Source: Zobellia barbeyronii
GTDB taxonomy: Bacteria > Bacteroidota > Bacteroidia > Flavobacteriales > Flavobacteriaceae
Reading direction: 5' to 3'
DNA: 64,000 bases
NCBI RefSeq assembly: GCF_018603515.1
Contig: NZ_JACATN010000003.1
Span: 372,001-436,000, forward strand
The notes beneath the pieces were generated by a model. It was not told the DNA's origin. It saw only the letters and a program-made list of their open reading frames with translations, and made no database searches. Below are positions 6,220 through 55,533 of the stretch, in pieces. A program made the position numbers and the translations under genes. Numbering within the stretch: the stretch's first letter is position 1; each line of letters opens with the position of its first letter.

Positions 6220-6403
6220 AATAATCTCTTTAAAGAACTTAATTTTAGCACCGTTAGGTGGTTAAAATTGCGGTTGCAAATGTATATTTTAGTATTCAAT
6301 TTCACAACTATTTCTTTCATTTTTTTCAAGAAATTTAAAACTATTTTAAATCGGCATTTAAAAAAAATAAAATAGGTGACATTTGAACTTTCCTACCACC
6401 TTA

Positions 6404-26595: not shown

Positions 26596-28326
26596 TTAAT
26601 GTTCTACATAAAAATCATAAACTACCACTTCTCCATAATTATTAGAATTACCTGTTTGGCTGCCTTCTTTTTCAGCATTACTTTGTGTGTAATTACCAAT
26701 TTTAAAATAAGCTTCTCCATAGCTTCTATCCATAACGTAGGAGTTACTGCCATCTTTTACTAAATAACGAGAAGCATTACCACTAGCATAAGCACTTTTT
26801 AAGCCACCATCTTCACTGTAATAGCAATAGTGTTTTCCATTTACTACTTCAAAAATTACTTCATGCTCAGTTCCTAAACTATAATTTGATTTAATAGTTA
26901 GGTCACTTCTTAGCTTACCACCGTTGAAACTTAAGAAAAGTTTTGAACCTTCTAATCTTAAAACCATTGCATCATCAATACCATCTGCTTTATTACCGTG
27001 TATTTGAGTAGCAACTAAATGGTCCTTTACTATGGGTAGATGCGTAATAGCTTGCTTAACATAAACCACATTGGTTCCCGAAGTTGTCCATGAAATATCA
27101 GTTTTACCATCTTCTGTTCTTTCACGAAGTTCAGAACGTACATAATCAGAATTAGGAGTTGTTCCATTACCACTTCTAATTGGTGCTCTAAAAACAATTC
27201 CGTTTTTATTATCATTTACATAGAAATACTCATTGTTACCTTCTCCACATAGTGTTTTATCTTCTCCACCATCTGGATAAGTAATTTTCCATTGGTTACA
27301 ATTATTCATTAAATCCGAAGGAATACTAGCAGTTCCTGTTCCGCCGCCGCCGTTACCATTGTCGTCGCTAGCCCCAAAAACTTGTACTTCTGCTAGAGAT
27401 AATGGGTTGTTCCCTTTTAATTTTATTCTAACTCTTGAACCACTTACACCACCTGTACTAACCGTAACAGAAGGATTTGGCGTAGAAGTAATTGTTGTCT
27501 TAAAAACCTGAGTACCCGCAGAATTATAAACAAAAACGTCAAAATTGCTCAATCTACTTGAACAACAATTTGTTCTGTTCCAAATCTTAATATCGCCTAT
27601 GGTATAGTCATCTCCCAACTGTACTTGCCACCAAGGCTGGTACATATTACTCGTATGGGTAACACTACCTTGGCTCCATACACCAGATGTATTTCCATCA
27701 ACTGCTAAACCAGCAAGACCTGAAGTACTTGAATAGTTTGAAGATTGAGTTGCTGATTTACCAAGTGCAAGATTACTAGAATCAGCATTATTACCGGCAT
27801 CAACGCTAACAGGTGTTATTTTTATCCAGTTAATATTCCAACCATTACCTGTGGCAAGAATTTTAAGAGTACTGCTCCCCGCAGACAAATTCACTGTTTT
27901 TGAAGTGGTTATCCAGTTTTGCCATCCATTAGTTGCAGCTTTATTAACATTAGATAGCTTTGTGTTATCCTGATAAAAATCGAATTTTGAGCTACTATCT
28001 TTAGAAGCAACTCTAAATTCCATTTTATAACTTCCAGAATTTGCTATGTTCAAATCATACTCCAAATAATCTCCAGTAGCTATCCATCCAACATTCTGAC
28101 CTCCTCCAGAATCGGAGGTTGTTTCTGTTCTAACACCATTCATGTTATCATAATCCTCTGCTTGGATTATAGTTGATGAACTTGATGGAACACTGAAAAG
28201 GTTCGCTACAGCAAAGTCTTCTTTCTCCTCTACCTCAGTTTTTGCACAACTTTGAGCAAAAACTAATGCCAGAACAGCACCACTTGCCAAAAGACGAGAT
28301 CTTGAATTTTCAAAAATTGTTTTCAT
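26596..28326 (-). CDS. Lipoprotein alginate lyase, CBM6-CBM32-PL7
   Basis: 576 aa. Signal peptide with lipobox AQSC (Cys about 27) predicts a lipoprotein, probably surface-exposed. Domains: CBM6 (about 52-172, IIQAEDYD... to INWIKI), F5/8C/CBM32 (about 182-318, LGKSATQSSNY... to LAEVQVFGA), a Gly/Asn linker, and a PL7 alginate lyase (about 332-576). All three PL7 signatures are present: VRSELRERTE, QIHG and YFKIGNYTQ, so the catalytic Arg, Gln, His and Tyr are there. PL7 enzymes cleave alginate by beta-elimination; the QIH variant is usually linked to guluronate-containing substrate. No SusCD pair, sugar-acid enzymes or regulator lies nearby. Three palindromes precede the gene (28351-28386). 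Confidence 0.95.
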   Translation of the reverse strand: MKTIFENSRSRLLASGAVLALVFAQSCAKTEVEEKEDFAVANLFSVPSSSSTIIQAEDYDNMNGVRTETTSDSGGGQNVGWIATGDYLEYDLNIANSGSYKMEFRVASKDSSSKFDFYQDNTKLSNVNKAATNGWQNWITTSKTVNLSAGSSTLKILATGNGWNINWIKITPVSVDAGNNADSSNLALGKSATQSSNYSSTSGLAGLAVDGNTSGVWSQGSVTHTSNMYQPWWQVQLGDDYTIGDIKIWNRTNCCSSRLSNFDVFVYNSAGTQVFKTTITSTPNPSVTVSTGGVSGSRVRIKLKGNNPLSLAEVQVFGASDDNGNGGGGTGTASIPSDLMNNCNQWKITYPDGGEDKTLCGEGNNEYFYVNDNKNGIVFRAPIRSGNGTTPNSDYVRSELRERTEDGKTDISWTTSGTNVVYVKQAITHLPIVKDHLVATQIHGNKADGIDDAMVLRLEGSKLFLSFNGGKLRSDLTIKSNYSLGTEHEVIFEVVNGKHYCYYSEDGGLKSAYASGNASRYLVKDGSNSYVMDRSYGEAYFKIGNYTQSNAEKEGSQTGNSNNYGEVVVYDFYVEH

Positions 28327-32748: not shown

Positions 32749-35700
32749 CTATTTATTTATTACCATCTGTTTTTGATATTGCTCACCTTGAGCATCAAGT
32801 GATCTAATAAAATAAGTTCCTGAAGGAAGTTCTTCTACATTTAACAAGTACGCCCCATCATCAGATACTGCTGATCCACTATATGAATGTACCAATCTTC
32901 CAGAAACATCAAATATATTTATCTCAGTTAATTGAACCGGTTTTTCAAAACTTAATATTGTTTCAGCTATCACAGGATTTGGAGTCAAGGTTGTTGTATT
33001 TATAATCGAACCTTTAGCATTAATACTAGTTAAAGACATATCCGAGTCATCACAACTAATACCACCATCATTAATAGTCCAATCATAGATATCGATTAAT
33101 TGTTGACGTGCATCTTCACTTGCACAATATGTTATATTAGTTGCGTCTAAAGTAATATATTGAGTTAATTCTTCTTGCTGTGCCCAACCAATTAAGGTTT
33201 TATCATAGTTTAAGGAACTTAAACCTGAACCTGAAAACATTTTTGATAAATCCTTAGTATTAGAAATATTAAAAGAAGATAAATCTTGATTGAATGAGTT
33301 AGCATCTAAAAACATATGACTCATACTATTAACATTACTGGTATCCCATGAGCTAATGTCTTGATTAAAAGAATCTGCATTTAAAAACATATATGACATA
33401 TCTAAAACATCATTAGTATCCCATCCACTTATATCTTCGTTCATGCTCGTCGCATTTACAAACATGCGACGGAAAGAAGTTACATCTCTAAGATCCGGAA
33501 TATCACTAGCAAGAATATGAAGGTTCTTACAATCCTGAAATGCTTGAGACATACCAGTCCATATCTGATCGCCCCACTGATCTACAGAAATTAGTTTATA
33601 AGAATCACTTTTGTAACTTTCTTCCATAAAAATTCTTGGGAAAGCACCACTTATTGAAATTTGATATACACCTGGCACTTCATAAGTATGTGTTTTACTG
33701 CCCGTAATCCCTATATCCGAAGTCCCATCTCCCCAATCAACACTATAATTATATATTTCCGGGGCATATATAGGTATCTTAATTTGATTATCCGCTGAGG
33801 CCCCTACATTATCTGTTTTCCATGTTGTAATAAAAGGTCTAATTATTGGATCATTACAATTGCTCTTACCGGCGTCAGTTATGCTCCAACCAAAATCATT
33901 GATTAATTTTTGGCGTGCTTCTTGACCTTGGCAATATTGCGAGTTACCAGCATTAAATATTACTCCATTTTTCAGGGTTTGACTACTCCAACCATTAAGC
34001 AAAGCGTCATAATTTTTATTAGAAAGACTCGCTCCTTGAAACATATTATTCATAGTTGTCACATTACTAATGTTCCAAGATGAAATATCAGAATCAAAGA
34101 AATCAGAATAAGAGAACATATAGTCCATATTAGAAATATTGGAAAAATCCCATGTACTAAGATTAGTTCCAATATTATCTACTCCACTAAACATGTGTGA
34201 AAGAGAAATTACATTCGATAAGTCTGGAGTATCAGTTGCAACAATTTTAAGATCTTTACAATTAGCAAAAGCATACTCCATAGATGACCATTTTATATCA
34301 CCCCAATGATCAATGGATATCAATTTTTCATTGTCTCCAAAAGTACTCCAATTCATTTTCGGGAATATTCCTGTAATACTGATTTGAAATACTCCACCTG
34401 TTCTGTACTTATGAGTGATTTCTCCCGTGACTCCAGAATTTGAAGTATCATCCCCCCAATCTACGTTATAATTATAGTCCATTCCGGATGCAGGTATTCT
34501 TACTTCATTGTATCTTGATACCCCATTATTATTTGTTTTCCATGTAGTAACAAAGGATGAAGAATCAATACAGTCCGCCATTTGACCTGAATCCTTTATA
34601 TGCCAGCCATAATCATTAACCAGTATTTGACGGACCTCTTTTCCCAAGCAGAAAGTCAAATTATTAGCAGAAAAATAAACATCTCGAGGTATTCTTCTTT
34701 CGTCAGCACTCAAAGTACTCCATCCAAGAAGTAATTTATCATAATTTTCAAAAGACATTTCCGTTTGTCCATTGAACATATTCTGAAGTCCAAAAGAACC
34801 CGTTAACCCACTAATATCCCAATCACCTATGTCTTGATTAAAAGCTTTACTGCTATGAAACATTGAAAACATAATTTCTACCTGACTAACATCCCACTTT
34901 CCAATATCCTGATTAAATTTACTAGCGTACTGAAACATTTCAGACATGTTTTGAACATTACCAACATCCCATGAACCAATATTTTGATTAAACTCATAAG
35001 CTGATTTAAACATGTTATTCATTTTGGTAACATTACTCACATCCCATTCGCTAATATCTTGATTGAATTTATAACTGTCATTGAACATGTGGCTCATCTT
35101 AGTCACGCTACCTACATCCCATGCTCCAATAGGTGCATTAAACAAAGTTGTTCCGAAAAACATATATTGCATATTTTCTACTTGAGATACATCCCATTTA
35201 TTGAGGTTTTGATTAAAGCTTTTGGCTGTTGTAAACGTTCTAAACATATCAACAACATTTCCAACATCCCAATTATCAAAAGAAGAATTCCCAACAAGCG
35301 CATCACAACCTTCAAACATAGATGCCAAGGAATAAACCTTTGTTAAATTTGGAATATCGCTAGCTACTACATCAAGATTTCTACAGTCTGTAAAGGCAGA
35401 TTCCATTGAGGTCCATTTAACGTTACCCCATTGGTTAACTGAGATTATTTTTAATTCATCAACATTTTCGGTCTGCTCAAAACCAGCATTGAAATAAATT
35501 CTTGGAAAATCTCCACTAATTGAAACCTCGTAAATGCCTGGTGTCTCATAGGTATGTGTTATATTTCCTCCCACATTTACATTTGTTGAACCATCTCCCC
35601 AATTAACAGAGTAATTATAATTTTCTTCTGGAAAAGTCGGTATCGTAATTTGATTATCTCCTGATATTCCTGGATTATCAGTTTTCCAGGTAGTTACAAA

Positions 35701-37938
35701 AGGCCTGAATTCATTCATTTCGGCCTCATTGATTCTGAACTCCGAAATACTGTTCCAGTTATTGTTCTCCTGTGAATTACCCTGGCCTATATAGCGCAGG
35801 TACCTCACACTTTGCAACGGAAAGCTATAAGCCTCCAAAGATATGGAATTGCCACTGCTCCTTTGGCCTTCCAAAACGTTAGTCCAGTTAGAACCATCAT
35901 CCGATACGGCAAGGTCAAAAAGACTAGTCCTTCGGTTTCCCGAGAAAAAGGCGATCTCCACATCGGACACGTTCTTGGTCTCCCCAAGATCGAATGTCAT
36001 CCATTCTCCCAAACCGTTGGAACTCCATCGGGAATAATAATTGCCGTCCATAACGTTGCAGGGGCCGTTACCGTCGTCCGAACTGACTGAAATCCGAACG
36101 AGAGCGATTCCCGTACTCGGCGAAGAATCCAGACAATCCCTTTCAGGTAAAACAAACTTGTTTATTCGGAATTCCGTAACTCCTTCTAAATCATTATTGT
36201 CCTGGGAATCTTGAGCCGTATAGCGTAAATATTTGGTATTTCGGACGGGAAAATTAAACTTTTCCAAGGCCAGCGAGGCACCGCTGCTAGACCCGTCCTT
36301 TAGTACTGTTGTCCAGTTAGCACCATCATCCGACACCGAAATATCAAACACGCTAGCGCTTATATCACCTGACAAAAAGGCTATTTCAACTTGGTCGACA
36401 TCACTTGAACCATCCATTTCAAAAGTTATGGATTTGCTCGAAAAGTTGGAACTCCAATAGGAGACTAAATCATTGTCCATGACATTACAGGGACCGTTGC
36501 CTTCATCTGAAACAGCCACAATTCTATTTGGAACTAGGCCGGAAGAGGGACTTGAATCAAAGCATTCAATTTCAGGAATTCGTGGTTCGTTTATTCTAAA
36601 TTCGGTAATACTATTCCAATTATTATTTTCCTGTGAATTCCCTTGTCCTACGTATCTAAGGTATCTAATATTTTGTGTTGAGAATTGAATCTCTTCTAAG
36701 TTTGTAGAAGCACCACTACTTGATTGATTCTCCAAAACAGTAGACCAGTTTTCTCCATCAATAGACACTTCTAAATCAAAAATACTAGCTCTATTATTAC
36801 CCGAGAAAAAGGCAATTTCCACACCTCCCACGTTCTTAGGCTCTCCAAAATCAAAAGAAATCCACTCACCTAGACCATTGGAACTCCATCTAGAATAAAA
36901 ATTACCATCCATTACGTTGCATGGACCATTACCGTCATCGGAATTTGCTACAATATTTTCAGGCACTAAACCAAAAGGTGGGTTTATTTCAAGACAGTTA
37001 CTTTCAGGTAAAACAGATTCGTCTATTCGGAATTCCGTAATCCCGTTTAAAGCATTATTGTCTTGGGAATTACCTTGAACAGTATACCGTAAATACTTCG
37101 TGCTTTGGAAAGGAAAATTAAATTTCTCTAAATCCAAAGAGGTTCCACTACTTGATCGGTCCTTTAAAACTGTTGTCCAGTTTACTCCATCAACGGACAC
37201 TAAAATATCGAATACGCTGACCCTTGTCTCTCCATACAAAAAGGCTATTTCAACCTGATCAACATCCTTAAAACCTGTCAATTCAAATGTTATGGATTCG
37301 CCTAGAACATTGGAACTCCAATAGGAGGTTAAATCATTGTCCATCAAATTACAGAGACCATTGCCGTCATCTGAAACAGCCACAATTCTATTTGGAACTA
37401 GACCAGACGAGGGACTTAGATCAAGGCATTCAATTTCAGGTATTCGTGGTTCGTTTATTCTAAATTCCGTAATACTGTTCCAATTATTATTTTCCTGTGA
37501 ATTCCCTTGCCCTACGTATCTAAGGTATCTAATATTTTGTGTGGAGAATTTAAACTCCTCCAAGTTTGTAGAAGCACCACTACTTGATTGACTCTCTAAA
37601 ACAGTAGACCAGTTTTTACCATCGATGGATACTTCTAAACTGAATATACTAGCTCTATTATTACCCGAGAAAAAGGCAATCTCAACCCCCCCAACGTTCA
37701 TAGCCGCCCCTAAATCGAATGAAATCCACTCACCTATACCATTGGAACTCCATCTAGAATAAAAATTACCATCCATTACGTTGCATGGCCCATTACCGTC
37801 ATCGGAATTTGCTACAATATTTTCAGGCACTAAACCAAAAGGTGGATTTAGCTCAAGACAATAGCTTTGAGCACTAGCACTTAAGGATATACCAAGTAAA
37901 AAAAATAAAAACTGGGTTTTAATGTAAAGTTTCTTCAT
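32749..37938 (-). CDS. Giant T9SS-secreted protein with discoidin-like, PKD-like and DUF285 repeats
   Basis: About 1729 aa from the ATG at 37938, chosen because it begins the signal peptide (MKKLYIKTQFLFFLLGISLS); an upstream in-frame ATG at 37977 adds 13 residues. Layout by nucleotide: five F5/8C-like domains of about 430 bp (37.86-35.71 kb), each starting with a Cys-containing segment such as CLELNPPFGLVP; then three modules, each a PKD-like domain (YSVNWGDGST) followed by DUF285/BspA-type repeats (FNQDISSWDVSNV, SHMF); then a type A sorting domain ending in YQKQMVINK. Domains 1-2 and 3-4 are a duplicated two-domain unit. A cell-surface or released adhesin, possibly carbohydrate-binding, is the inference. 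No catalytic domain was seen. Confidence 0.92.
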   Translation of the reverse strand: MKKLYIKTQFLFFLLGISLSASAQSYCLELNPPFGLVPENIVANSDDGNGPCNVMDGNFYSRWSSNGIGEWISFDLGAAMNVGGVEIAFFSGNNRASIFSLEVSIDGKNWSTVLESQSSSGASTNLEEFKFSTQNIRYLRYVGQGNSQENNNWNSITEFRINEPRIPEIECLDLSPSSGLVPNRIVAVSDDGNGLCNLMDNDLTSYWSSNVLGESITFELTGFKDVDQVEIAFLYGETRVSVFDILVSVDGVNWTTVLKDRSSSGTSLDLEKFNFPFQSTKYLRYTVQGNSQDNNALNGITEFRIDESVLPESNCLEINPPFGLVPENIVANSDDGNGPCNVMDGNFYSRWSSNGLGEWISFDFGEPKNVGGVEIAFFSGNNRASIFDLEVSIDGENWSTVLENQSSSGASTNLEEIQFSTQNIRYLRYVGQGNSQENNNWNSITEFRINEPRIPEIECFDSSPSSGLVPNRIVAVSDEGNGPCNVMDNDLVSYWSSNFSSKSITFEMDGSSDVDQVEIAFLSGDISASVFDISVSDDGANWTTVLKDGSSSGASLALEKFNFPVRNTKYLRYTAQDSQDNNDLEGVTEFRINKFVLPERDCLDSSPSTGIALVRISVSSDDGNGPCNVMDGNYYSRWSSNGLGEWMTFDLGETKNVSDVEIAFFSGNRRTSLFDLAVSDDGSNWTNVLEGQRSSGNSISLEAYSFPLQSVRYLRYIGQGNSQENNNWNSISEFRINEAEMNEFRPFVTTWKTDNPGISGDNQITIPTFPEENYNYSVNWGDGSTNVNVGGNITHTYETPGIYEVSISGDFPRIYFNAGFEQTENVDELKIISVNQWGNVKWTSMESAFTDCRNLDVVASDIPNLTKVYSLASMFEGCDALVGNSSFDNWDVGNVVDMFRTFTTAKSFNQNLNKWDVSQVENMQYMFFGTTLFNAPIGAWDVGSVTKMSHMFNDSYKFNQDISEWDVSNVTKMNNMFKSAYEFNQNIGSWDVGNVQNMSEMFQYASKFNQDIGKWDVSQVEIMFSMFHSSKAFNQDIGDWDISGLTGSFGLQNMFNGQTEMSFENYDKLLLGWSTLSADERRIPRDVYFSANNLTFCLGKEVRQILVNDYGWHIKDSGQMADCIDSSSFVTTWKTNNNGVSRYNEVRIPASGMDYNYNVDWGDDTSNSGVTGEITHKYRTGGVFQISITGIFPKMNWSTFGDNEKLISIDHWGDIKWSSMEYAFANCKDLKIVATDTPDLSNVISLSHMFSGVDNIGTNLSTWDFSNISNMDYMFSYSDFFDSDISSWNISNVTTMNNMFQGASLSNKNYDALLNGWSSQTLKNGVIFNAGNSQYCQGQEARQKLINDFGWSITDAGKSNCNDPIIRPFITTWKTDNVGASADNQIKIPIYAPEIYNYSVDWGDGTSDIGITGSKTHTYEVPGVYQISISGAFPRIFMEESYKSDSYKLISVDQWGDQIWTGMSQAFQDCKNLHILASDIPDLRDVTSFRRMFVNATSMNEDISGWDTNDVLDMSYMFLNADSFNQDISSWDTSNVNSMSHMFLDANSFNQDLSSFNISNTKDLSKMFSGSGLSSLNYDKTLIGWAQQEELTQYITLDATNITYCASEDARQQLIDIYDWTINDGGISCDDSDMSLTSINAKGSIINTTTLTPNPVIAETILSFEKPVQLTEINIFDVSGRLVHSYSGSAVSDDGAYLLNVEELPSGTYFIRSLDAQGEQYQKQMVINK
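34640..35400 (-). repeat. DUF285/BspA-type tandem repeats, first module
   Basis: Roughly seven copies of a 23-25-residue unit (core FNQDIGxWDVxxVxxMxxMF) within the giant T9SS protein. Two shorter blocks of the same repeat lie near 33930-34330 and 33120-33560. Confidence 0.85.
35710..37865 (-). repeat. Five discoidin-like domain repeats
   Basis: Units begin near 37860, 37430, 37000, 36570 and 36140. Unit 1 resembles unit 3 and unit 2 resembles unit 4 at DNA level over long stretches (compare 37440-37570 with 36580-36710), showing duplication of an about 860-bp pair. Unit 5 is protein-homologous but GC-richer. Confidence 0.9.
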
Positions 37939-38107
37939 ATAGTTGGTCGGTTTTGATGCTAGAAAAAAATAGTTCAATATTTATAATTTGTCTGGTATAA
38001 GAAAAATAATGCTTGTAAGATATTACTTAGATTCAGACATAGGAGTTAGTAAAGCTGATTATCGATAAAGTGTATATAAACTGTGTTAAAATACACACAG
38101 TTTTTAC
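37939..38107. other. Upstream region of the giant T9SS gene
   Basis: About 170 bp of AT-rich sequence between the start codon and the right-hand terminator copy. It must hold the promoter, but I find no exact consensus. A loose inverted repeat GTGTAT...ATACAC lies at 38070-38096. Confidence 0.4.
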
Positions 38108-46158: not shown

Positions 46159-47988
46159 TTGGAACCTTTTATTGTATCGGCACGTAAATATAGACCTCAG
46201 ACATTTAAGGATGTTGTGGGGCAACAGGCCATTACTAATACCCTAACCAATGCCATTGAACATAATCATTTGGCACAGGCCCTTTTATTTTGTGGTCCTA
46301 GGGGAGTTGGTAAGACTACCTGTGCACGTATTCTTGCCAAGCAAATAAATTCCGATGGAACAGAAAGTGAAGATGAGGATTTTGCATTCAATATTTTTGA
46401 GCTAGATGCCGCCTCTAACAACTCTGTAGATGATATTCGTAACCTTATAGACCAGGTACGCATACCACCCCAAGTAGGTAAATACAAAGTATATATTATA
46501 GATGAGGTGCACATGCTCTCACAATCGGCCTTCAATGCTTTTCTAAAAACACTTGAAGAACCGCCAAAGCATGCTATTTTCATCTTAGCAACCACTGAAA
46601 AGCACAAAATTATCCCAACGATACTTTCTCGTTGTCAAATATTTGATTTTAAACGCATTACAGTTAAGGATGCTGCTCAATATTTGAAATACATAGCCGA
46701 AAACCAAGGTATAGTTGCAGATGATGATGCTTTACATATCATTGCTCAAAAAGCTGATGGTGCCATGAGAGACGCCCTTTCTATTTTTGATAGAGTGGTT
46801 AGTTTTTCAGGAAAAGAACTGACAAGAAAGGCCGTAACAGAAAACCTAAATGTTTTAGATTACGACACCTATTTCTCGGCAACAGATTTTATTTTAGAGC
46901 ATAATATTCCACAGCTACTACTTTTATTCAACGAAACCTTGTCATTAGGTTTTGACGGACATCACTTTATAAGTGGCTTAGCTTCGCATTTCAGAGATCT
47001 TATGGTTTGTCAACATCAAGACACCATTAACTTATTGGAAGTAGGTGACGTAGCCAAACAGAACTACTTAGAGCAGTCAAAAAAGACCTCTATGCAGCTT
47101 CTTATGCAAGCTTTAAATATTGCCAATGACTGCGATTTAAAGTATAAAACCAGCAAGAATCAGCGGCTGCTGGTAGAACTTACTTTAATGAAATTAGCTT
47201 CAATTGGATTTGAGGCCGAAAAAAAAAACTCTGAATCTGACGTCTTAGACGGTTCTACTATAGATTTTATTGCGCCTGCATCCTTTTTTAGAGGAAATAG
47301 CTCTGTTAAAAAAGATTCTGCCGAAACCCCTACCCCTCAACAACACACAAAACCAGCTACTCCAGCACCTGCAGAGATAAATAAGCAGGAAGCCCAGCAG
47401 TATCAGGCAGAGGAAACAAAGCAAAAATCAAATTCTTTAGCAGTGGCAGAACCTAAAGTTGAGGAAACTGCACAACCACCTAAACCCGAAGCCGCTCCGG
47501 TAAATAAAATTAATATTGGTGGAGGAAAAAGAGTTTCCGGACTCTCTATTTCTAGCCTAAAAGCAAAGAAAGAGCACGAACTCAGCCGAAAGGACGATAC
47601 AATTGACGAAAGTAAACTCCCTAAAGACCCCTTTACCGAAGAGGCTATGCAAAAACATTGGGCGGATTTTGTTCATAAAATCGATATAGATGGCAAGAAA
47701 ATACTAGCATCTAACCTCAGCGTAGATATACCTAAGCTAGTTCAAGACAAAACCATTTGGATTGAATTGCCTAACGAAACAATGAAAAAGGAAATTGAGC
47801 GGGAGCAATATGGCCTTATGGAGCACCTGAGAAAAAATCTCAACAATTATTTCATTGAACTTAAGATTACTGTTAACGAAAAAATAGCTAAAAAATTCGC
47901 GTTTACTCCTGAGGAAAAGTATGAAAAACTTAGAGAAAAGAACCCAGCTATAGATTTGCTTAGAAAAACTTTTGACTTAGATCTTTAA
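46159..47988 (+). CDS. dnaX: DNA polymerase III subunit gamma/tau
   Basis: 609 aa clamp-loader ATPase. SARKYRPQTFKDVVGQQAI, Walker A GPRGVGKTT (about 45-53), Walker B VYIIDEVHML, LKTLEEPP, and sensor motif ATTEKHKIIPTILSRC are present, followed by a low-complexity Pro/Gln/Ala linker (about 385-455) and a C-terminal tau-like domain. The zinc-binding loop normally holding four Cys is replaced by the short NSDGTESEDEDFAFN without Cys. Start is TTG at 46159, supported by conservation from the second residue and the absence of an earlier ATG. The 3' end overlaps the convergent TMEM220 gene by 12 bp. Confidence 0.96.
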   Translation: MEPFIVSARKYRPQTFKDVVGQQAITNTLTNAIEHNHLAQALLFCGPRGVGKTTCARILAKQINSDGTESEDEDFAFNIFELDAASNNSVDDIRNLIDQVRIPPQVGKYKVYIIDEVHMLSQSAFNAFLKTLEEPPKHAIFILATTEKHKIIPTILSRCQIFDFKRITVKDAAQYLKYIAENQGIVADDDALHIIAQKADGAMRDALSIFDRVVSFSGKELTRKAVTENLNVLDYDTYFSATDFILEHNIPQLLLLFNETLSLGFDGHHFISGLASHFRDLMVCQHQDTINLLEVGDVAKQNYLEQSKKTSMQLLMQALNIANDCDLKYKTSKNQRLLVELTLMKLASIGFEAEKKNSESDVLDGSTIDFIAPASFFRGNSSVKKDSAETPTPQQHTKPATPAPAEINKQEAQQYQAEETKQKSNSLAVAEPKVEETAQPPKPEAAPVNKINIGGGKRVSGLSISSLKAKKEHELSRKDDTIDESKLPKDPFTEEAMQKHWADFVHKIDIDGKKILASNLSVDIPKLVQDKTIWIELPNETMKKEIEREQYGLMEHLRKNLNNYFIELKITVNEKIAKKFAFTPEEKYEKLREKNPAIDLLRKTFDLDL

Positions 47989-48336
47989 CCCTTTTACAAA
48001 GCGAATTCGCAGGGCATATACTAACATTACTAATGCTATAATTAGTAAACCACAAGCCTCTCTACCGCGTTCAATATTTTCTATATCTCCCTCTCCAATA
48101 GCAAAACCTTGAAATTGCACAGGCCATTGCTTATAAGCACCTTTAATTGATATGAGACAAAAAATAGTTGCTATAGTAAACGTCAAACGATTCGCTACAA
48201 AAAGGACTGATGCAAAAGCAGCTAAGCCATAAATTACATACCATATAGTAGCATCTGGATCATTGTATTGTAGATATGCCGCCCAAGTGAAAAGGATTGC
48301 AAATACAGCGCCTACTATTTTAAAGAAAGACTTCAT
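47977..48336 (-). CDS. TMEM220-family small membrane protein, coupled to eboF
   Basis: 119 aa with three to four membrane helices (about 5-20, 32-47, 50-66, 92-110) and the TMEM220 hallmark AAYLQYNDPDATIWYVIYG. The function of the family is unknown. Its start codon lies inside the eboF stop region (4-bp overlap), so it is almost certainly translated from the ebo message. Whether it is a functional part of the ebo system or a passenger is not known. It overlaps the end of convergent dnaX by 12 bp. Confidence 0.88.
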   Translation of the reverse strand: MKSFFKIVGAVFAILFTWAAYLQYNDPDATIWYVIYGLAAFASVLFVANRLTFTIATIFCLISIKGAYKQWPVQFQGFAIGEGDIENIERGREACGLLIIALVMLVYALRIRFVKGLKI

Positions 48337-49712
48337 TCTTCTTCAGTTAGATGTTTCTTTAAGATACCATATACATCGGTCGCTTCAATATCATCATTAA
48401 AAGAGGAGTTTACCTGATCCGTAACCAAAATAGGAAAGTCCGCTTTATCTTCTGGTATTCTACCGTGCGAACCCTTTACTAAGGTTGCATCCAACGGAAT
48501 TATATTCATTACAGTTCTGAATCCCATTTTTTTCTTAAGCAACATAGCAACAACTTTTGCCATTACCAATTTGTCTTTAGGATCCGTCAACATTTCCACT
48601 GGATCATAACCTGGTTTTTTATGAATATCAACCATACGCGCATAATCGGGTGCTTTGGCGTCATCCAACCAGAAATAATATGTGAACCAAGAGTCGGCAT
48701 CGGCAACCACAACTAGGTCACCGCTTCTTTCATGATTCAATTTAGCCTTTTCAAGCTCTTCACCCATAAGTACCATCTCAACTCCTGAAACTGATTCCAG
48801 CAAAGCTTTAACCTCTAACTTAACGGAAGGATCATTCAAATAAATATGTGCTATTTGATGATCTGCCACAGCAAAAGCTCTGCTTTGGCCCGCATCTAAA
48901 AGCTCCAGTCCTCGTTCTTCACGAATAGCTATATAGCCCTTAGAACGTAAAATTCTATTTAAGTGGATAGGATTATTCACATCTGTAATACCATATTCAG
49001 AGAGCAATACAATACGTGCGTTACGCTTTTGAAAATGGTTCACCAATTGCTCTACAACCCCATCTATTTCTTTCAGGTCTTTTTTGATTTTATCAAAATC
49101 AAGTCCGTGACGTTGTAAATTATAGTCTAAATGCGGAAGATAAACCAAAGACAATGTTGGGTTATGCATCTCATCCGTACGTATGGCTGCATCTGCAATC
49201 CATTTACTAGATTTTATTGACGTTTTTGGGCCCCAAAATTGAAAAAGAGGAAAAGTCCCCAACTCATTTTGTAGCGTATCTCTTAACTCAGGTGGATATG
49301 AATATACATCCGGAATTTTTCTACCATCGGCCAAATAATTAGGTCTTGGAGTTAGACTGTAGTCTACATTAGAATACATGTTATACCACCAAAAATGATT
49401 TGCACATGTAAAATGCTCATCTTCTTTTTTTAGCTCATCCCAAATTTTTTCGCTCTGCACCAATTTATTAGACTGGTTCCAAAACTTCACCTCACACAAA
49501 TCTTTAAAATACCATCCATTACCAACAATACCATGTACGTCAGGCGTTTTTCCGGTCAAATATGTAGACTGTGCGCTGCAAGTTACCGCAGGCAAAACCG
49601 GACTTATGTAAGCTGATTTACCTTTTTTTAAAAAAGCTTCAATAAACGGGGTATGCTCCCCAATAAGACGTTGGGTCAAACCCACAACATTAATCACTAG
49701 CGTTTTCTTCAT
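48333..49712 (-). CDS. eboF: EboF: alkaline-phosphatase/NPP-like phosphodiesterase family protein
   Basis: 459 aa of the nucleotide pyrophosphatase/phosphodiesterase fold without signal peptide. The nucleophile Thr44 is in LPAVTCSAQSTYLTG, followed by TPDVHGIVGNGWYF; LPHLDYNLQRHG (Asp, His) and KGSHGRIPED (His) give further metal ligands. Two usual ligand positions look altered: the first Asp loop reads VINVVGLT, and the Asp-His pair reads SEYGIT. Substrate unknown. Last core gene of the ebo cluster, 3 bp after eboE; the TMEM220 gene overlaps its end. Confidence 0.9.
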   Translation of the reverse strand: MKKTLVINVVGLTQRLIGEHTPFIEAFLKKGKSAYISPVLPAVTCSAQSTYLTGKTPDVHGIVGNGWYFKDLCEVKFWNQSNKLVQSEKIWDELKKEDEHFTCANHFWWYNMYSNVDYSLTPRPNYLADGRKIPDVYSYPPELRDTLQNELGTFPLFQFWGPKTSIKSSKWIADAAIRTDEMHNPTLSLVYLPHLDYNLQRHGLDFDKIKKDLKEIDGVVEQLVNHFQKRNARIVLLSEYGITDVNNPIHLNRILRSKGYIAIREERGLELLDAGQSRAFAVADHQIAHIYLNDPSVKLEVKALLESVSGVEMVLMGEELEKAKLNHERSGDLVVVADADSWFTYYFWLDDAKAPDYARMVDIHKKPGYDPVEMLTDPKDKLVMAKVVAMLLKKKMGFRTVMNIIPLDATLVKGSHGRIPEDKADFPILVTDQVNSSFNDDIEATDVYGILKKHLTEEE

Positions 49713-49715
49713 CTT

Positions 49716-50909
49716 CTAAAACTTTTCTACAAACCAATCAATCTCTCTAATAATAGACTCAGAAAGGTCTCTTTTTAAAGCAGACGGAAGAACATCCCAA
49801 GTATAGGTCTCAATTTCCAAATGCTCAGAAACAGGATGGTCCTTTATATATTTCATCACTTTTAGAATATGGTCTTGCGTAGAATCTAACGCACCAAAAC
49901 GTTCTAAAAATATTGGCACATGAAAATGTGCCCGTAACTCTTCAAATTCTCTTTTATTCTCAAGTACAATAGGCAAATCATTGTAAGTTTTTACCTTTCC
50001 ATCTACCTTTTCCGTTACTTGATGAAGGTATGTAGGTTCGTCAAAAAGCGTCAAGGCTTTCCATATCTCATCATTCCCTGACGGGTTAGACAAGATTTTT
50101 AAGGCTGCACTAACTTGAATCTTTCCTATAGCAATGCCTGCTTCTGCAAACTTTTCAAAGGTATCTATGGGTTCTTCATAAGCCAATGAAAAATGACAAA
50201 TATCGTAACAAACCGTAAGGTAACGGCGTATTATTTCATCCGCAGTCTCAGTATTTACTCCAAGTTTTTCACTGATTACAGATGTTCCGATAGGCAATAG
50301 GTAATCTGCAAAAAAATGCAACACCTCATCACTGTTCTCTAACATGCCATCTGGTTCCGGTTCAATATCAAGATGTAGATACTTCCCCGTTTCTTTTTCT
50401 ATATTATGTAGATGGATGGCAACCTCTATCATATTTTTTGCTCCAGTTTCAAAAGCTAATTTTGTAGCCTCTTCTGTAGCATGCCAGTATTTATAACTTA
50501 CGGGAGATGTTGAAATCCCACCTGCAATACCCTCTGGAAGTAAAGCTGCCAACTGATCAAACATACGCTTGGTATAAATCAGCCTTTCCTGGGTGGTCCA
50601 ATCTGGTGCATGAACATCATCTTTAACCCGTTCATTATGAAAATTACCATACGGAAAACCGTTCATGGTAAACACATAAACCTGATTATCACCTAACCAT
50701 TGTTTAAACTCGTTTAGGTTTCCGTTCAGAGCAAGCTCTTCGCTCGCCTTATTGGATAATCGTAAACCAAGTCCAAAAGGGTTATTAGGAGACACCTTTT
50801 CCTTTATCTGCGGAACGTGTTCTTTAAGACTGTCAAAAGTGGTCTTCCAATTAAATCCTGGATGGATATTGGTGCAATATGTAAGTTGAAAATTGTTATC
50901 TATGCGCAA
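49716..50909 (-). CDS. eboE: EboE: TIM-barrel metabolite traffic protein
   Basis: 397 aa. It starts MRIDNNFQLTYCTNIHPGFNW and has the layout of xylose-isomerase-like TIM barrels (LHLDIEPEPDGML, VCYDICHFSLAYEEP, GKIQVSAALKI, FLERFGALDSTQDH), with acidic and His residues at strand ends that could bind a metal. It matches the EboE family, which is thought to act on a small metabolite precursor, although no reaction is proven. One base separates it from eboD, and three from eboF. Confidence 0.92.
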   Translation of the reverse strand: MRIDNNFQLTYCTNIHPGFNWKTTFDSLKEHVPQIKEKVSPNNPFGLGLRLSNKASEELALNGNLNEFKQWLGDNQVYVFTMNGFPYGNFHNERVKDDVHAPDWTTQERLIYTKRMFDQLAALLPEGIAGGISTSPVSYKYWHATEEATKLAFETGAKNMIEVAIHLHNIEKETGKYLHLDIEPEPDGMLENSDEVLHFFADYLLPIGTSVISEKLGVNTETADEIIRRYLTVCYDICHFSLAYEEPIDTFEKFAEAGIAIGKIQVSAALKILSNPSGNDEIWKALTLFDEPTYLHQVTEKVDGKVKTYNDLPIVLENKREFEELRAHFHVPIFLERFGALDSTQDHILKVMKYIKDHPVSEHLEIETYTWDVLPSALKRDLSESIIREIDWFVEKF

Positions 50910-50910
50910 G

Positions 50911-52071
50911 CTACTCTACTTTAAGTTTTGAAATTTCGTTTACCAAATCCAATGCCTTTTTCATGGTCTGCCGGTCAATTTCGTGAACGTCGTGTTTTAC
51001 ACCAATATCTGAAATAAGAGTTATGGTAAGTTCCCCACCTAAGTGTTCCCTAAATTCTTCTATTCCATTAAGTAATTCATCGACTTCTTTTTCTGTAGCC
51101 AACGGAAAACTTAAATCAAAACCGATATTCTGAAAAACACGTACAACACGATTTAAATCGGCCTCATTAATCAAACCAATTAAATGAGTGTATGCCACAT
51201 CTAGAACAATACCCTTTGCTACGGCTTCGCCATGGCGAAGTGCGTAGTTGGTCATATACTCCAATTTATGTGCAGCCCAGTGACCAAAGTCCAATGGCCT
51301 AGAAGAACCACTTTCAAAAGGATCACCGCCTTGTGCAATATGGTACATATGCATTTCTGCACACCTATAAATGGTATACTGCATGGCTTCCATATCTCTA
51401 TCTCTCAATAGATGTGCATTTTTCTCTATATATTCAAAAAAGACAGCGTCCTTAATCAATGCAACCTTTAAGGCTTCAGAAATACCGGAAATCCAATCAC
51501 GTTGTTCCAACGTTTTAAGGAAATCAGTATCATTAATGATAGCATATGGAGGAGCAAAAGTTCCTATAAAGTTCTTCTTCCCGAAGGCGTTGACACTATT
51601 TTTTACACCCACAGCAGAATCATCTTGCGAAAGTACTGTAGTAGGTATGCGTATCAACTTAACACCTCTATGTGCTATTGCCGCAGCGTATCCTGCCATG
51701 TCTATTACAGCGCCTCCACCTATAACGACAACAAATGAATGGCGACAAATCGCATACTCGCTAACTGCCTTAAGGATATCTTCAACTTGACTTTCATTAT
51801 TCTTGCAAGCTTCACCACCTTGCACCACCATACTTTTCATATGAACCAGATTCTCTTGGTAATGTTGACAGTAGGCTTTTATATTTTTAATAAGGTCCGG
51901 GTGAGCAGCAGCTACCCCATCATCAACAACAAAAAGAAGCTTTACGGGCTCATTTTTATATGCCTTAATAATATCCTTGAACAAGGTATTTTCTGTACCG
52001 AACAAATTTTCGGTAAAGTGGAGGCCATATTGATATGAAACCTCAAATTTTTGCTCTATAGTTTTAAACAT
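50911..52071 (-). CDS. eboD: EboD: 3-dehydroquinate synthase-like protein
   Basis: 386 aa of the sugar-phosphate cyclase family. NAD site VVIGGGAVIDMAGYAAA, RIPTTVLSQDDSAVG, and the metal ligands in ISGISEALKVALI (Glu), DFGHWAAHKLE (His) and RHGEAVAKGI (His) are all kept, so it may be catalytically competent. No other shikimate gene is nearby and the gene is embedded in ebo, so it is assigned EboD and not AroB. The product might be a cyclitol; this is inference. 33 bp separate it from eboC. Confidence 0.92.
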   Translation of the reverse strand: MFKTIEQKFEVSYQYGLHFTENLFGTENTLFKDIIKAYKNEPVKLLFVVDDGVAAAHPDLIKNIKAYCQHYQENLVHMKSMVVQGGEACKNNESQVEDILKAVSEYAICRHSFVVVIGGGAVIDMAGYAAAIAHRGVKLIRIPTTVLSQDDSAVGVKNSVNAFGKKNFIGTFAPPYAIINDTDFLKTLEQRDWISGISEALKVALIKDAVFFEYIEKNAHLLRDRDMEAMQYTIYRCAEMHMYHIAQGGDPFESGSSRPLDFGHWAAHKLEYMTNYALRHGEAVAKGIVLDVAYTHLIGLINEADLNRVVRVFQNIGFDLSFPLATEKEVDELLNGIEEFREHLGGELTITLISDIGVKHDVHEIDRQTMKKALDLVNEISKLKVE

Positions 52072-52104
52072 CGTATTTCTTTTGAAGGTCGATAAAAATT
52101 GACC

Positions 52105-53007
52105 TTAGGTAACGGCAAACACTCTAGATAAGCCTTTTGAAACAGGCAGTAATGCCAATATAATTAATCCGTACCACCAGTCAAAAAATGCAACGGCAAT
52201 AGACGAATCCAATAAGATTAATGCTATGACACCTGCCATAACAGCTTTTTTAATATTCTCTGGTGAGTTTACGGAGTGTGCTTTTATTAAAGGTCTAAAA
52301 ACCGTGAACGCAAACAATACTAAAAACAATAACGGAAATAAAAGGGCATCCGTATGTAAAAAGGCCATAGTTGCCACAGCTAAAATAACTGCACCATATA
52401 GTACTCCTGCCAATACAATGTGGTTTTTGTTTTTTCCATGTACTTCCCCTCTGCTTATCAGCGTGATAGCAAAAATATAAACGATTGGAATAATAGCCAT
52501 AAACCAGGAATCGAAATTACCTAAAATGGACATGCCCAACAGCAAATTTACACCTCTACATAAGCCCATACTCAACGGACCGAAAAAATCATATTTTTTG
52601 GCAATCCCATCGTATAAAAGAATTGCCAAGGCAAGTGCAACAGCTACTATGCCAGAAGTTCCCGAAACTAAAAAGGCCAACAACACACCAATAACCAAGG
52701 TGGTTACACCATACATAGCAGCTGCATTAAAAGGAACTACGCCACTAGGAATAGGCCGCTCAGGTCGTTCTACTTGATCAAGCTTAAAGTCAAAAACATC
52801 ATTAAGAATAACTCCTCCGGCATAAAGAAACACCGATGAAAATACTAAGTATACGATATTTAGGAAAAGGTTAGAACCAACAAAACCGGCATCAATCCCA
52901 CCTATGAAAACACCGCCAATAGCTACACCTGCCAAAATATCTGCGGCAGCTGTAGGTAAATTAGCAGGTCTTGCCAATCGCGCATAACCAAGAAATGTGC
53001 GATTCAT
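52105..53007 (-). CDS. eboC: EboC: UbiA-like prenyltransferase
   Basis: 300 aa, eight to nine membrane helices. The first Asp-rich motif is VILNDVFDFKLDQVERPERP (NDxxDxxxD, with the RP signature), and the second region is LLYDGIAKKYDFFGPLSMGL, as in UbiA superfamily enzymes, which attach isoprenoid chains to polar or aromatic acceptors in the membrane. The acceptor here is unknown. Its start overlaps the eboB stop by one base. Confidence 0.94.
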   Translation of the reverse strand: MNRTFLGYARLARPANLPTAAADILAGVAIGGVFIGGIDAGFVGSNLFLNIVYLVFSSVFLYAGGVILNDVFDFKLDQVERPERPIPSGVVPFNAAAMYGVTTLVIGVLLAFLVSGTSGIVAVALALAILLYDGIAKKYDFFGPLSMGLCRGVNLLLGMSILGNFDSWFMAIIPIVYIFAITLISRGEVHGKNKNHIVLAGVLYGAVILAVATMAFLHTDALLFPLLFLVLFAFTVFRPLIKAHSVNSPENIKKAVMAGVIALILLDSSIAVAFFDWWYGLIILALLPVSKGLSRVFAVT

Positions 53008-53915
53008 TATTTAATCTGATCAGAATCTACTCTAGGCTCTTGCCCTCTTAAAACGCTATTATCATTAAAAAGTTGGGCTTGGTTAATACCTTTTGGATTC
53101 AACCAGTGCTCTTCTTTCATCTTACCATTTGTGCCAAAAATATCTAGCGCATTCTGGTAACAGGTTTTTACAACGTCTTCTCTTGCAATCCCTCTTTTTA
53201 GCATAAGGTTTGCGGTTTTTGGCACCGCTAATGGATCACTTACACCCCAATCTGCAGAGCTATCTACAATTATATTATTACTACCATATTTTTTTACAAC
53301 CTCTACCATTCGCTCATTACCCATTTTTGTTTTTGGGTAAATAGTAAATGCAGCAATAAAACCTCTATCAAGAACGTCCTTAACCGTTTCTTCGTTATTA
53401 TGATCAATTACCACTTGCGAAGGGTCTAGACCATGCTCCAGACAAACTTCCATACTTTTTAAAGTACCTGCTTTTTTATCACGGTGAGGCGTGTGTACTT
53501 GGACGACCATACCCAATTCTTTAGCCATTTCTAATTGCATACGGAAATACTTATCTTCCGCTGGGGTTTGGTCATCATAACCTATCTCGCCAATAGCTAC
53601 TACATTCTGCTTGTGAACATATAAAGGTAAAAGCTCTATAACTTGTTCTGCCAAAGCTTCATTGTTTGCCTCCTTAGAGTTTAGACCAATTGTACAATAG
53701 TGGTGAATACCAAATTGACTAGCTCTAAAAGGCTCCCAGCCAACTAAACTACTGTAATAATCTTGAAAAGAACCTACTTGAGTTCTTGGTTGTCCTAACC
53801 AAAAAGAAGGTTCTATTATAGCAACAACCCCGGCCGCAGCCATAGCTTCATAATCGTCTGTGGTTCGCGATGACATATGTACATGCGGGTCGATTATCAT
53901 CATTTTATCTTCCAT
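53007..53915 (-). CDS. eboB: EboB: TatD-family metal-dependent hydrolase
   Basis: 302 aa amidohydrolase barrel. Metal residues: IDPHVHMSS (HxH), GEIGYDD (Glu), VQVHTPHRDK (His), VIDHNNEE (His) and VDSSADWGVSD (Asp). TatD relatives are nucleases or hydrolases, but in ebo clusters the substrate is presumably a small metabolite. Stop and start codons overlap or nearly touch both neighbours (1-bp overlap with eboC, 1-bp gap to eboA). Confidence 0.93.
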   Translation of the reverse strand: MEDKMMIIDPHVHMSSRTTDDYEAMAAAGVVAIIEPSFWLGQPRTQVGSFQDYYSSLVGWEPFRASQFGIHHYCTIGLNSKEANNEALAEQVIELLPLYVHKQNVVAIGEIGYDDQTPAEDKYFRMQLEMAKELGMVVQVHTPHRDKKAGTLKSMEVCLEHGLDPSQVVIDHNNEETVKDVLDRGFIAAFTIYPKTKMGNERMVEVVKKYGSNNIIVDSSADWGVSDPLAVPKTANLMLKRGIAREDVVKTCYQNALDIFGTNGKMKEEHWLNPKGINQAQLFNDNSVLRGQEPRVDSDQIK

Positions 53916-53916
53916 A

Positions 53917-54774
53917 CTAATCTTTTATATTTTTCCAGGTAATGTTTTTGTTCTCTACTTGAGCTTTCAACTCGGGATGCTTTGCCAATAATTCTTTAGC
54001 CATTGGCTCTTCAGAAGTATAACAGCATAAGGCCGCTACTTTATTTTCAATAGGATTATCGCTAGCAAACAAGCGCACCATATCTTTCAATAGGTTTTCA
54101 TCCAAAAATGCGGCTACTGGCCTCCAGAATAAGGGTTCTATTTCTCGTGAAGCTGCCCATCTCTCATGTGCGTAATCAGATATAATACGCGTCAAATCCT
54201 TATTCGCTCGTTCATCAATACTTAAAATGGTCGAAAGGTCTAACTGCATAAATGCAGCCTTAAGGAACATTTGGTTCCATTGCTGATCATTAAAGTATTT
54301 TGCGGGATACGGATTCTGCATACTTATCGCCTCGAATATTGTGGCAATGTTCGTACGCAATGCTTCTACTGCAGTTTGCTTATAATTTTCGGCATCGGGC
54401 AATAGAATAAGATACTTCAGGAAAGTTTCAAGTTCTCCGGTATCCGCCACCTGAATTAGGTTGGCAACTTTAGGCACAAAGAAATCGCCGTTTGCCTTCA
54501 ATACCTTTATTAAAAGATAAATTCTGGCTATCTGAAGCGTTGTGGCATTCTGCGTTCTTAAATATTGGGTTACTTCATCTGTATCTGAGCTCAGATTCAA
54601 AACGGTGTCTGAATCAATCTTACTAGCCAACAAGCTGTAAGTCATATACAGGTCCTTTGTAGAACTAGAGCTAGTGATTTGCTCCAATTTTGATTGCAAC
54701 CATGAATCTGTAGCAGCATCTAAATTGCTATTCAATAAAGACTGAAGCTCTTGGTCTAATTTGGTTAATTCCAT
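53917..54774 (-). CDS. eboA: EboA domain-containing protein
   Basis: 285 aa, mostly helical, no signal peptide or membrane helix. Sequence such as LIKVLKANGDFFVPKVANL, LRTNIATIFEAISMQNPYPAKYF and DNPIENKVAALCCYTSEEPM fits the EboA family, which has no assigned activity. The repeat-like alpha-helical character suggests a scaffold or adaptor. First gene of the cluster, with a consensus promoter at 54855-54882. Confidence 0.92.
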   Translation of the reverse strand: MELTKLDQELQSLLNSNLDAATDSWLQSKLEQITSSSSTKDLYMTYSLLASKIDSDTVLNLSSDTDEVTQYLRTQNATTLQIARIYLLIKVLKANGDFFVPKVANLIQVADTGELETFLKYLILLPDAENYKQTAVEALRTNIATIFEAISMQNPYPAKYFNDQQWNQMFLKAAFMQLDLSTILSIDERANKDLTRIISDYAHERWAASREIEPLFWRPVAAFLDENLLKDMVRLFASDNPIENKVAALCCYTSEEPMAKELLAKHPELKAQVENKNITWKNIKD

Positions 54775-54854
54775 AATCTGTTATTCGGGTTTCTTGACAA
54801 GTGGTAACAACCCTATTTTTAGTGCCTTTCGGCATAATAAAAAACAACTATTCA

Positions 54855-54882
54855 CAAAACTAATTATTCTTTGGAGAAACAA
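54855..54882 (-). promoter_or_regulatory. Promoter of the ebo operon
   Basis: On the minus strand TTG (54882-54880), 17 bp, TAGTTTTG (54862-54855): exact consensus. The predicted leader is about 75 nt and contains a small TGCC-TTTC-GGCA hairpin near 54823. Confidence 0.75.
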
Positions 54883-54951: not shown

Positions 54952-55533
54952 ATGCTAGGCCTGAAGTTACCAACTGACCCAAGATGGGTGAATATTGTTG
55001 AGAAAAACATAGATGAAATTTTAACGGACCATGCGTACTGTGAGCAAAAAGCAGCAAGCACAGCCATATCATTAATTATAAGTTTTCCGGAATATACAGC
55101 GCTCGTAGAGGAAATGATTGCTCTTTCTAGAGAAGAGATGGCACATTTTAAAATGGTACATGACCGAATTACAGCAAGAGGGCAAACTTTAGGGCGTGAT
55201 AGAAAGGACGAATATGTACTTCAATTGATAAAATTTTTTCCAAAAGGTGGAAGCCGAACGACCCAATTAGTTCATCGTCTTTTATATGCCGCATTAATTG
55301 AAGCGCGAAGTTGCGAGCGCTTTAGATTACTTTCAGAAGAACTAGAAGACAAAGAACTTGCAGAGTTCTACCACAAGCTTATGGTAAGTGAAGCCGGACA
55401 TTACACCATGTTTTTACAATTTGCAAGACAATATGGTGACCGTACCGAGGTGGACAAAAAATGGCAAGCACTACTAGATTTCGAATCTGGAATAATGAAA
55501 AACCTAGGAAATAAAGAAAGTATTCACGGATAA
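54952..55533 (+). CDS. miaE: tRNA 2-methylthio-N6-isopentenyladenosine-37 hydroxylase
   Basis: 193 aa ferritin-like di-iron enzyme. The ligands are visible as SREEMAHFKMVHDR (ExxH), an IEARSCERF helix and a SEAGHYTMFLQFAR (ExxH) helix, with DHAYCEQKAAS at the N-terminus. It hydroxylates ms2i6A37 in tRNAs reading U-starting codons, using O2, so the host respires or tolerates oxygen. Monocistronic; divergent from the ebo operon with which it shares a 177-bp intergenic region. Confidence 0.96.
   Translation: MLGLKLPTDPRWVNIVEKNIDEILTDHAYCEQKAASTAISLIISFPEYTALVEEMIALSREEMAHFKMVHDRITARGQTLGRDRKDEYVLQLIKFFPKGGSRTTQLVHRLLYAALIEARSCERFRLLSEELEDKELAEFYHKLMVSEAGHYTMFLQFARQYGDRTEVDKKWQALLDFESGIMKNLGNKESIHG

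Follow-up and report, generated by a model that had tools for sequence, protein, structure and literature searches.

Gene clusters of the ebo type, which occur in plastids and in several bacterial phyla, raise the question of what small molecule they make, and of which proteins share in making and using it. We address this question for the ebo cluster of Zobellia barbeyronii, on the minus strand of a 64,000-nucleotide stretch of contig NZ_JACATN010000003.1 (positions 372,001 to 436,000; RefSeq assembly GCF_018603515.1), hereafter the window, in whose coordinates all positions are given. The cluster is of a known kind, to which our analysis adds an overlooked companion gene, encoding a protein of the TMEM220 family, and two new clues to the chemistry, namely the replacement of EboD by a myo-inositol-1-phosphate-synthase homologue in other phyla and a conserved but altered active site in EboF. 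The reading that we prefer, tentatively and at slightly under even confidence, is that a seven-gene ebo operon forms a prenylated cyclitol at the inner membrane and uses it, with TMEM220 as partner, to bring a small metabolite to the membrane's periplasmic side.

Three studies provide the groundwork. Yurchenko (2016; PMC5133447) named the operon, described the ABCDEF order in Bacteroidetes and proposed an isoprenoid-cyclitol as its product; the versions from Bacteroidetes and from the plastids of Vischeria and Monodopsis resemble that of the window in having six genes of the same families in the same order. In Nostoc, the scytonemin monomer stayed in the cytoplasm after each ebo deletion tested, eboD not being among them (Klicki 2018; PMC6282210), which makes Nostoc the only organism in these studies for which a need of ebo in metabolite export was shown; a lipid carrier was proposed. 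The Nostoc punctiforme genes are homologous to those studied here, but differ in their tie to scytonemin export and in that eboD lies outside the cluster proper. Thirdly, EboC proteins from the Ubi-297 operons of Maribacter, Zobellia uliginosa and Algoriphagus, which are the same cluster as in the window and include one from the same genus, were reported to farnesylate 8-hydroxyquinoline-2-carboxylic acid (8-HQA) in vitro (Amiri Moghaddam 2022; PMC9235831). A full ebo cluster is also contained in the EDB cluster of Pseudomonas fluorescens NZI7 (PMC6282210), whose expression in E. coli is reported to yield indole compounds (review PMC9655573). Bacteroidota ebo clusters, Zobellia included, and the prenyl-cyclitol idea are already published, and the observation from which we started, including its carrier hypothesis, was mostly known already. 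The TMEM220 companion, the EboD swap and the EboF active-site changes lie beyond the ebo papers searched: the main text of PMC5133447, supplements aside, does not mention TMEM220, 'inositol' or 'active site'; the main text of PMC6282210 mentions neither TMEM220 nor inositol; and the text of PMC9235831, which treats eboC and aromatic acceptors, mentions neither 'TMEM220' nor 'inositol'.

That the minus-strand genes from 48333 to 54774 are an ebo cluster, running from eboA to eboF, is virtually certain. The original prediction had placed six adjacent genes here in canonical order with gaps of -1 to 33 bp, and the open frames, NCBIfam and Pfam agree, the gaps from eboA to eboF being 1, -1, 33, 1 and 3 bp. 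The comparison of gene order in other Flavobacteriaceae that it had called for was made in an evenly drawn sample of 299 genomes of the family, in which loci were inspected for 50 of the 51 genomes with eboE, the window being the 51st. The A-F order was found in 44 of these 50, far above chance; three loci lack eboA nearby and three hold eboE alone. The set from eboA to eboF is complete in the window, though the range assigned to the six genes, which began at 47977, holds a seventh. This gene (47977-48336, minus strand) overlaps eboF by 4 bp and converges, with a 12-bp overlap, on a gene that we take from inspection of its sequence to be dnaX. Its 119-residue product belongs to the TMEM220 family (PF15071, E 2.4e-22; 80 bits against a cut-off of 27), and we propose it as the seventh gene of the ebo unit.

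This proposal rests on co-occurrence. In the family sample eboE was found in 51 genomes, TMEM220 in 70 (69 over the Pfam cut-off, the match in G392 falling under it and being counted as ebo-negative) and both in 46, giving TMEM220 in 46 of the 51 eboE genomes versus 24 of the 248 others (P 1.4e-30). In three of the five eboE genomes without TMEM220 (G334, G560 and G566) the stretch from miaE to dnaX holds eboE and no further ebo gene, and therefore ebo itself has been lost there; none of the three has a TMEM220 match, and when they are recounted as ebo-negative the figures become 46/48 versus 24/251, or 40/42 versus 20/194 by genus. Across 295 genomes drawn, likewise evenly, from the whole class, TMEM220 was present in 13 of 14 ebo genomes and 20 of 281 others (P 4.8e-13). 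Within the family it lies behind eboF in 36 genomes, before eboA in five and unlinked in five (41 of 46 linked); one locus (L260, genome G551) has two tandem copies before eboA, one of them a shorter match. Outside Flavobacteriaceae it adjoins ebo in other layouts at six loci and lies nearby at a seventh (L157). In seven genomes ebo is elsewhere and TMEM220 is at the miaE-dnaX site, and all 19 genomes picked from 60 loci, mostly for a non-adjacent TMEM220, have the gene somewhere. Genome G030, which has no EboE match, carries, beside TMEM220, eboA together with pieces of eboB and eboF (L128), an arrangement that reads as a decayed ebo cluster.

Could TMEM220 be simply a passenger of the miaE-dnaX site, with no functional tie to ebo? 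Such an origin would suit the facts that 36 of the 41 linked family cases share one site, behind eboF, that 24 of 251 family genomes have TMEM220 and no ebo cluster, and that two of the five ebo-negative family loci inspected (G439 and G350) retain it at the miaE-dnaX site. The co-occurrence nevertheless extends to unlinked genes, to other families and to the opposite end of the cluster, and MiaE, a true neighbour of the site, shows no association when used as a control in the class-wide sample (12/14 ebo genomes versus 194/281 others, P 0.15). On this control the candidate of a mere site neighbour was rejected, and we regard a passenger as very improbable. A functional tie between TMEM220 and ebo in Bacteroidota is, in our judgement, highly likely. 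The known EboG variant, in which eboG replaces eboA, provides no name for the gene: eboA is present in the window, TMEM220 co-occurs with eboA, and two Deinococcus ebo clusters, which carry a short hypothetical gene at the expected eboG place, gave no TMEM220 match (E up to 10), so that the identification of TMEM220 as EboG was rejected.

The TMEM220 protein has four membrane helices in its AlphaFold model (mean pLDDT 92.7). Residues Q23, N25, D26, D28, W32, P72, G77, E89, R92, E93 and G96 are invariant in 37 rows and fall within or next to the first or third turn separating the hydrophobic stretches, E89-G96 starting helix 4 in the model. The orientation of membrane proteins follows the positive-inside rule, by which the conserved polar residues are predicted to face the periplasm, with a modest charge bias. 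Among the matches listed from open-licence PubMed Central, none is by its title a study of bacterial TMEM220, and none sets TMEM220 beside ebo terms. At nine loci, most of them from ebo-negative genomes of one family (f10), a recurrent neighbour stands beside TMEM220.

The chemistry of the product is addressed most directly by EboD (50911-52071, minus strand; 386 residues), a sugar-phosphate-cyclase protein resembling 3-dehydroquinate synthase (DHQS), the name that NCBI gives to the model NF004852 which it matches (558 bits, cut-off 333). Its zinc triad (E199, H264, H280) and the GGGxxxD NAD motif are invariant in 20 aligned rows. In a cross-phylum comparison of 12 rows from five phyla, the window included (10 rows for this zinc set), the E, H and H ligands, equated by alignment, are kept in 10 of 10. 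By alignment, the substrate pocket has H241, S257 and D261 where solved DHQS has K250, R264 and N268, position 257 being Ala in six of nine rows from other records; for the DHQS pocket we assume the Aspergillus numbering and roles. A separate true AroB is encoded elsewhere in the genome (G000:C33:232150-233166; 328 bits). Since AroB is present and the DHQS pocket residues are replaced, EboD is unlikely to be the shikimate enzyme and was rejected as such, in line with the cyclitol role that the original prediction suggested for it.

A clue to what EboD might make comes from lineages that lack it. Of the 47 plasmid records in which eboE occurs, 32 come from Actinomycetota and Gemmatimonadota, and in 29 of these 32 a homologue of myo-inositol-1-phosphate synthase lies 4.4-5.2 kb from eboE; of the other three, two have only B, E and F within 7 kb and one has a lone eboE. 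The EboD profile found no match in the nine Actinomycetota and Gemmatimonadota stretches that were read. The 18 of the 47 plasmid stretches that were read comprise nine with EboD, six with the synthase homologue, three lacking the two and none with both, a tally made from annotation and profiles in which absence of the synthase from the nine EboD stretches is by annotation only. The arrangement is clearest in five Streptomyces stretches with clusters of the SCO3242 type, which share EboA, EboB, EboE, EboF and an EboC homologue with ebo, and differ from it by a second TIM barrel and by the synthase homologue in place of EboD; here the synthase homologue heads the ebo row and adjoins the EboC homologue. 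Three ebo-linked homologues scanned are clear members of PF07994/PF01658; two scored 44-48 bits with the mycothiol INO1 model, whose cut-off is 638, and the ebo-linked synthase is therefore a distinct branch. Divergent lineages agree on the synthase, including Streptomyces (~50-57% identical to the query), Embleya, Nonomuraea and Gemmatirosa (46%). Because an enzyme that forms rings but belongs to another family stands in EboD's place, a cyclitol is supported, and we consider that the ebo head group is probably one. The swap would also make a C6 precursor plausible alongside the published C7 idea, and worth testing. The step from a cyclitol to a prenyl-cyclitol lipid as the ebo product is less secure, and we put it just short of an even chance. 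The lipid-linked carrier inferred from this locus at the outset thus gains new support from the swap, as an idea that Yurchenko (2016) and Klicki (2018) had already published.

Several further loci are observations in their own right. On a plasmid of Streptomyces sp. NBC_01244 (L275, 6986-8164) an orphan eboE lies amid annotation resembling an aromatic polyketide cluster. On the flanks of the ebo cluster of Ketogulonicigenium (L204) lie a second TIM barrel and two Gfo/Idh/MocA oxidoreductases (5786-7832 and 14223-15134), families that include inositol-converting enzymes. A Leeuwenhoekiella locus (L044) has ebo without eboD, in a genome (G609) with an inositol-phosphate-synthase homologue, which occurs in only two of the 299 Flavobacteriaceae genomes. 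That gene lies in a separate cluster (L222, 4679-14644) with a methyltransferase, Gfo/Idh, YcaO, a TIM barrel, a glycosyltransferase and a PIG-L deacetylase; it shares only 32-36% identity with the ebo-linked synthases and comes from a metagenome bin (n=1), and the case is weak and was not counted as support.

A second line of evidence on the product is the biochemistry of EboC (52105-53007, minus strand; 300 residues), a prenyltransferase of the UbiA superfamily (NF035940, 364 bits, cut-off 250) whose Asp-rich NDxxDxxxD motif is present in all 12 cross-phylum rows. The sole solved relative by sequence is digeranylgeranylglyceryl phosphate (DGGGP) synthase (6m31, E 2.8e-14). The window protein is 85% identical to EboC of Z. 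uliginosa DSM 2061 (locus L002), and the description of the cluster as being of unknown cargo left out that this close homologue farnesylates 8-HQA in vitro (PMC9235831). These assays open the alternative that the product is an aromatic meroterpenoid, with EboC C-farnesylating a quinoline such as 8-HQA, the other enzymes building or tailoring the aromatic partner, and no cyclitol carrier at all. The activity was obtained with membranes containing the Maribacter, Z. uliginosa and Algoriphagus proteins, the products being supported by MS/MS and for Maribacter also by 1H NMR, whereas the substrates were added, all are described as aromatic, and eight of the 14 aromatic compounds offered as acceptors, including phenols and catechols, were not farnesylated by the EboC homologues (PMC9235831). 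No quinoline-forming family appeared among the other ebo proteins in our family scans. A meroterpenoid also leaves unexplained both the synthase homologue in EboD's place and, in Nostoc, the build-up of one and the same scytonemin monomer in every mutant tested (PMC6282210). We therefore rate it as unlikely.

EboB (53007-53915, minus strand; 302 residues) is TatD/amidohydrolase-like, with a Pfam TatD match (PF01026, E 1.4e-18; 68 bits, cut-off 27) and an NCBIfam score of only 40 bits against a cut-off of 206. Its metal-type residues H11, H13, E110, H141, H172 and D222 are intact and conserved in 12 of 12 rows, the window included; we take this His/Glu/Asp set to have the metal-binding roles of TatD hydrolases. 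Among solved chains the nearest is AF_1765 (3guw), itself uncharacterised. EboE (49716-50909, minus strand; 397 residues, TTG start) is a xylose-isomerase-like TIM barrel (NF035939, 482 bits, cut-off 250), for which a profile search with E up to 1 found no solved sequence relative.

EboF (48333-49712, minus strand; 459 residues) is a member of PF01663 (E 4.5e-64) and so of the nucleotide pyrophosphatase/phosphodiesterase (NPP) and type I phosphodiesterase superfamily, as the label NPP-like had implied; the metal-ligand positions are changed. The notable active-site positions are V10, T44, N65, D196, Q200, E239, Y240 and H416. The NPP two-zinc ligand set (D, D-H, D-H and H, with a Thr nucleophile) is, by alignment, not present in EboF, four zinc-ligand positions being altered: Val replaces the first metal Asp of nucleotide pyrophosphatase 2gsn, and, relative to 2gsn and to phosphonoacetate hydrolases, Gln replaces a metal His and Glu-Tyr an Asp-His pair. 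These alignments score low, V10 being placed from the 2gsn alignment alone and H416 from a GxHG motif by eye, which makes the equivalences, like the ligand roles assumed for the NPP positions, provisional. The site is conserved, yet it is not the usual one. In 90 rows, each of at least 380 residues, Q200, E239 and Y240 occur in 90/90 and V10 in 87/87 ungapped rows, while T44, D196 and H416 are kept; the same holds in all 12 cross-phylum rows. Because four zinc-ligand positions are changed, the label of an NPP hydrolase is doubtful for EboF.

Such a site, together with the fold predicted for EboA, could be taken to mean that the Ebo proteins make no small molecule but form a translocation complex, with EboA as scaffold, EboC as a channel-like component and the others in regulatory roles. 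EboA (53917-54774, minus strand; 285 residues) matches an EboA domain model (150 bits, cut-off 50; NCBIfam), falls below the cut-off of a longer EboA family model (167 versus 320 bits) and matches no Pfam family; it is predicted to be an alpha-solenoid of the HEAT/ARM-like kind and is a likely scaffold. A complex would fit this fold, the changed metal-ligand positions of EboF and the accumulation of no gene-specific intermediate in the Nostoc mutants described (PMC6282210). Against it, EboB, EboC and EboD retain their catalytic-type residues in the compared rows from five phyla, and a ring-forming stand-in for EboD is hard to explain without catalysis. We consider a purely structural complex improbable.

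Another alternative keeps the chemistry and drops the transport. In the proposal of Yurchenko, a soluble or cell-surface protective isoprenoid-cyclitol would be the end product, the transport defects in Nostoc being indirect. It calls on the same enzymes as does a carrier, and accords with occurrence in plastids and several phyla (PMC5133447). As was noted at the outset, no cargo cluster adjoins ebo, and none was obvious in the 20 other window proteins and MiaE that were scanned (the window holds 44 frames of at least 170 residues), which also suits an end product. The localisation in Nostoc, on the other hand, points to translocation (PMC6282210), and a near-constant small membrane companion in the sampled Bacteroidota is better suited to a membrane process. 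An end product appears to us a minority possibility. An export role of ebo in Z. barbeyronii itself is one to which we give somewhat less than even credence.

Under the preferred reading of a prenylated cyclitol handled at the inner membrane, the steps would be as follows. EboD would close a sugar phosphate to a six-membered cyclitol or inosose, as the synthase homologue that replaces it in other phyla suggests, and EboE, with its TIM barrel, and EboB, with its intact TatD-type metal site, may adjust the ring. The membrane-embedded EboC, whose nearest solved protein is the archaeal ether-lipid DGGGP synthase, would add the prenyl chain, a step made plausible by the in vitro transfer by close homologues, though on quinolines. 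The EboA alpha-solenoid might hold the soluble enzymes together, and EboF may bind or remodel a phosphate-bearing intermediate, judging from its residues by a route other than the usual two-zinc hydrolysis. TMEM220, with its conserved polar residues predicted on the periplasmic side, could handle the passage of the lipid, or of its cargo, through the membrane. A bolder version, which we think rather unlikely, is that TMEM220 is a dedicated partner, either a flippase subunit or a lipid-binding protein, of new prenyl-cyclitol ether lipids that ferry small metabolites across the inner membrane, with the ring made by EboD or the synthase homologue according to lineage and with EboF as a new enzyme of the alkaline-phosphatase superfamily that lacks the usual zinc pair.

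Several observations weigh against this reading. The sole assayed EboC activity, quinoline farnesylation, competes with a cyclitol (PMC9235831). The swapped synthase lies far from INO1, so that something other than plain inositol phosphate may be its product. Near-copies make up many of the 28 actinomycete records, those of Streptomyces among them. For TMEM220, no fold match to a solved structure suggests a function. Two complete clusters (G188 and G505) and a B-F cluster (G535) are without it, the A1 profile giving no match in the first two and a chance-level E of 0.16 in the third; it is absent from all 11 plasmid ebo stretches profiled, from five phyla and with one from Bacteroidota (Aureibacter); and only five of the 13 class-wide genomes with both have ebo and TMEM220 near each other on one contig. 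Conversely, 44 sampled genomes have TMEM220 without EboE, and none of the 44 has EboC over its cut-off, so TMEM220 exists apart from ebo. In a TMEM220 tree of 113 rows, with identical sequences entered once and with the 25 of these 44 genomes that had a fetched locus, the ebo-negative label needs 11 changes, at least nine of them forced by well-supported branches. Finally, the co-occurrence statistics ignore kinship.

Upstream of eboA, the single consensus promoter foreseen at 54855-54882 (minus strand) is real as a motif, TTG-N17-TAGTTTTG, and is not among the sites listed by a sigma-70-type scan, whose own sites are not in excess (26 versus 30.8 in shuffles). We call it Bacteroidota-type on the assumption that the consensus in this phylum is TTG-N17-23-TAnnTTTG. 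Counting both strands, the window has 20 copies of the motif, with ~0.03 expected in this stretch, and its exact form is found in eight of 40 miaE-eboA spacers of relatives versus 18 of 800 control stretches. Between it and eboA (54800-54860) lies a short hairpin-like stretch (TGCCGAAAGGCA), spotted by eye. The divergent flank, outside the ebo system, is a miaE-family gene (54952-55533, plus strand; PF06175), whose product scores 94 bits against the NCBIfam MiaE cut-off of 320; the source genome has two MiaE-family matches, the other at G000:C34. The neighbour name ppk, like dnaX, is presumed from inspection of the sequence. Farther off, the window encodes an alginate lyase bearing CBM6 and F5/8C domains (26596-28326), which suits a seaweed-associated lifestyle, and a frame of 1742 residues (32749-37977) that combines a Por secretion tail with DUF285 repeats, PKD and five F5/8C stretches.

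The search for the ebo product goes back to 2016, and the link to TMEM220 gives it a small, testable membrane component. The residues of EboF caution against treating it as a routine phosphodiesterase, and the exchange of EboD for the synthase homologue narrows the search for the product toward a cyclitol lipid and suggests first substrates. As the TMEM220 family is also present in humans, its association with ebo is a functional lead for the family as a whole.

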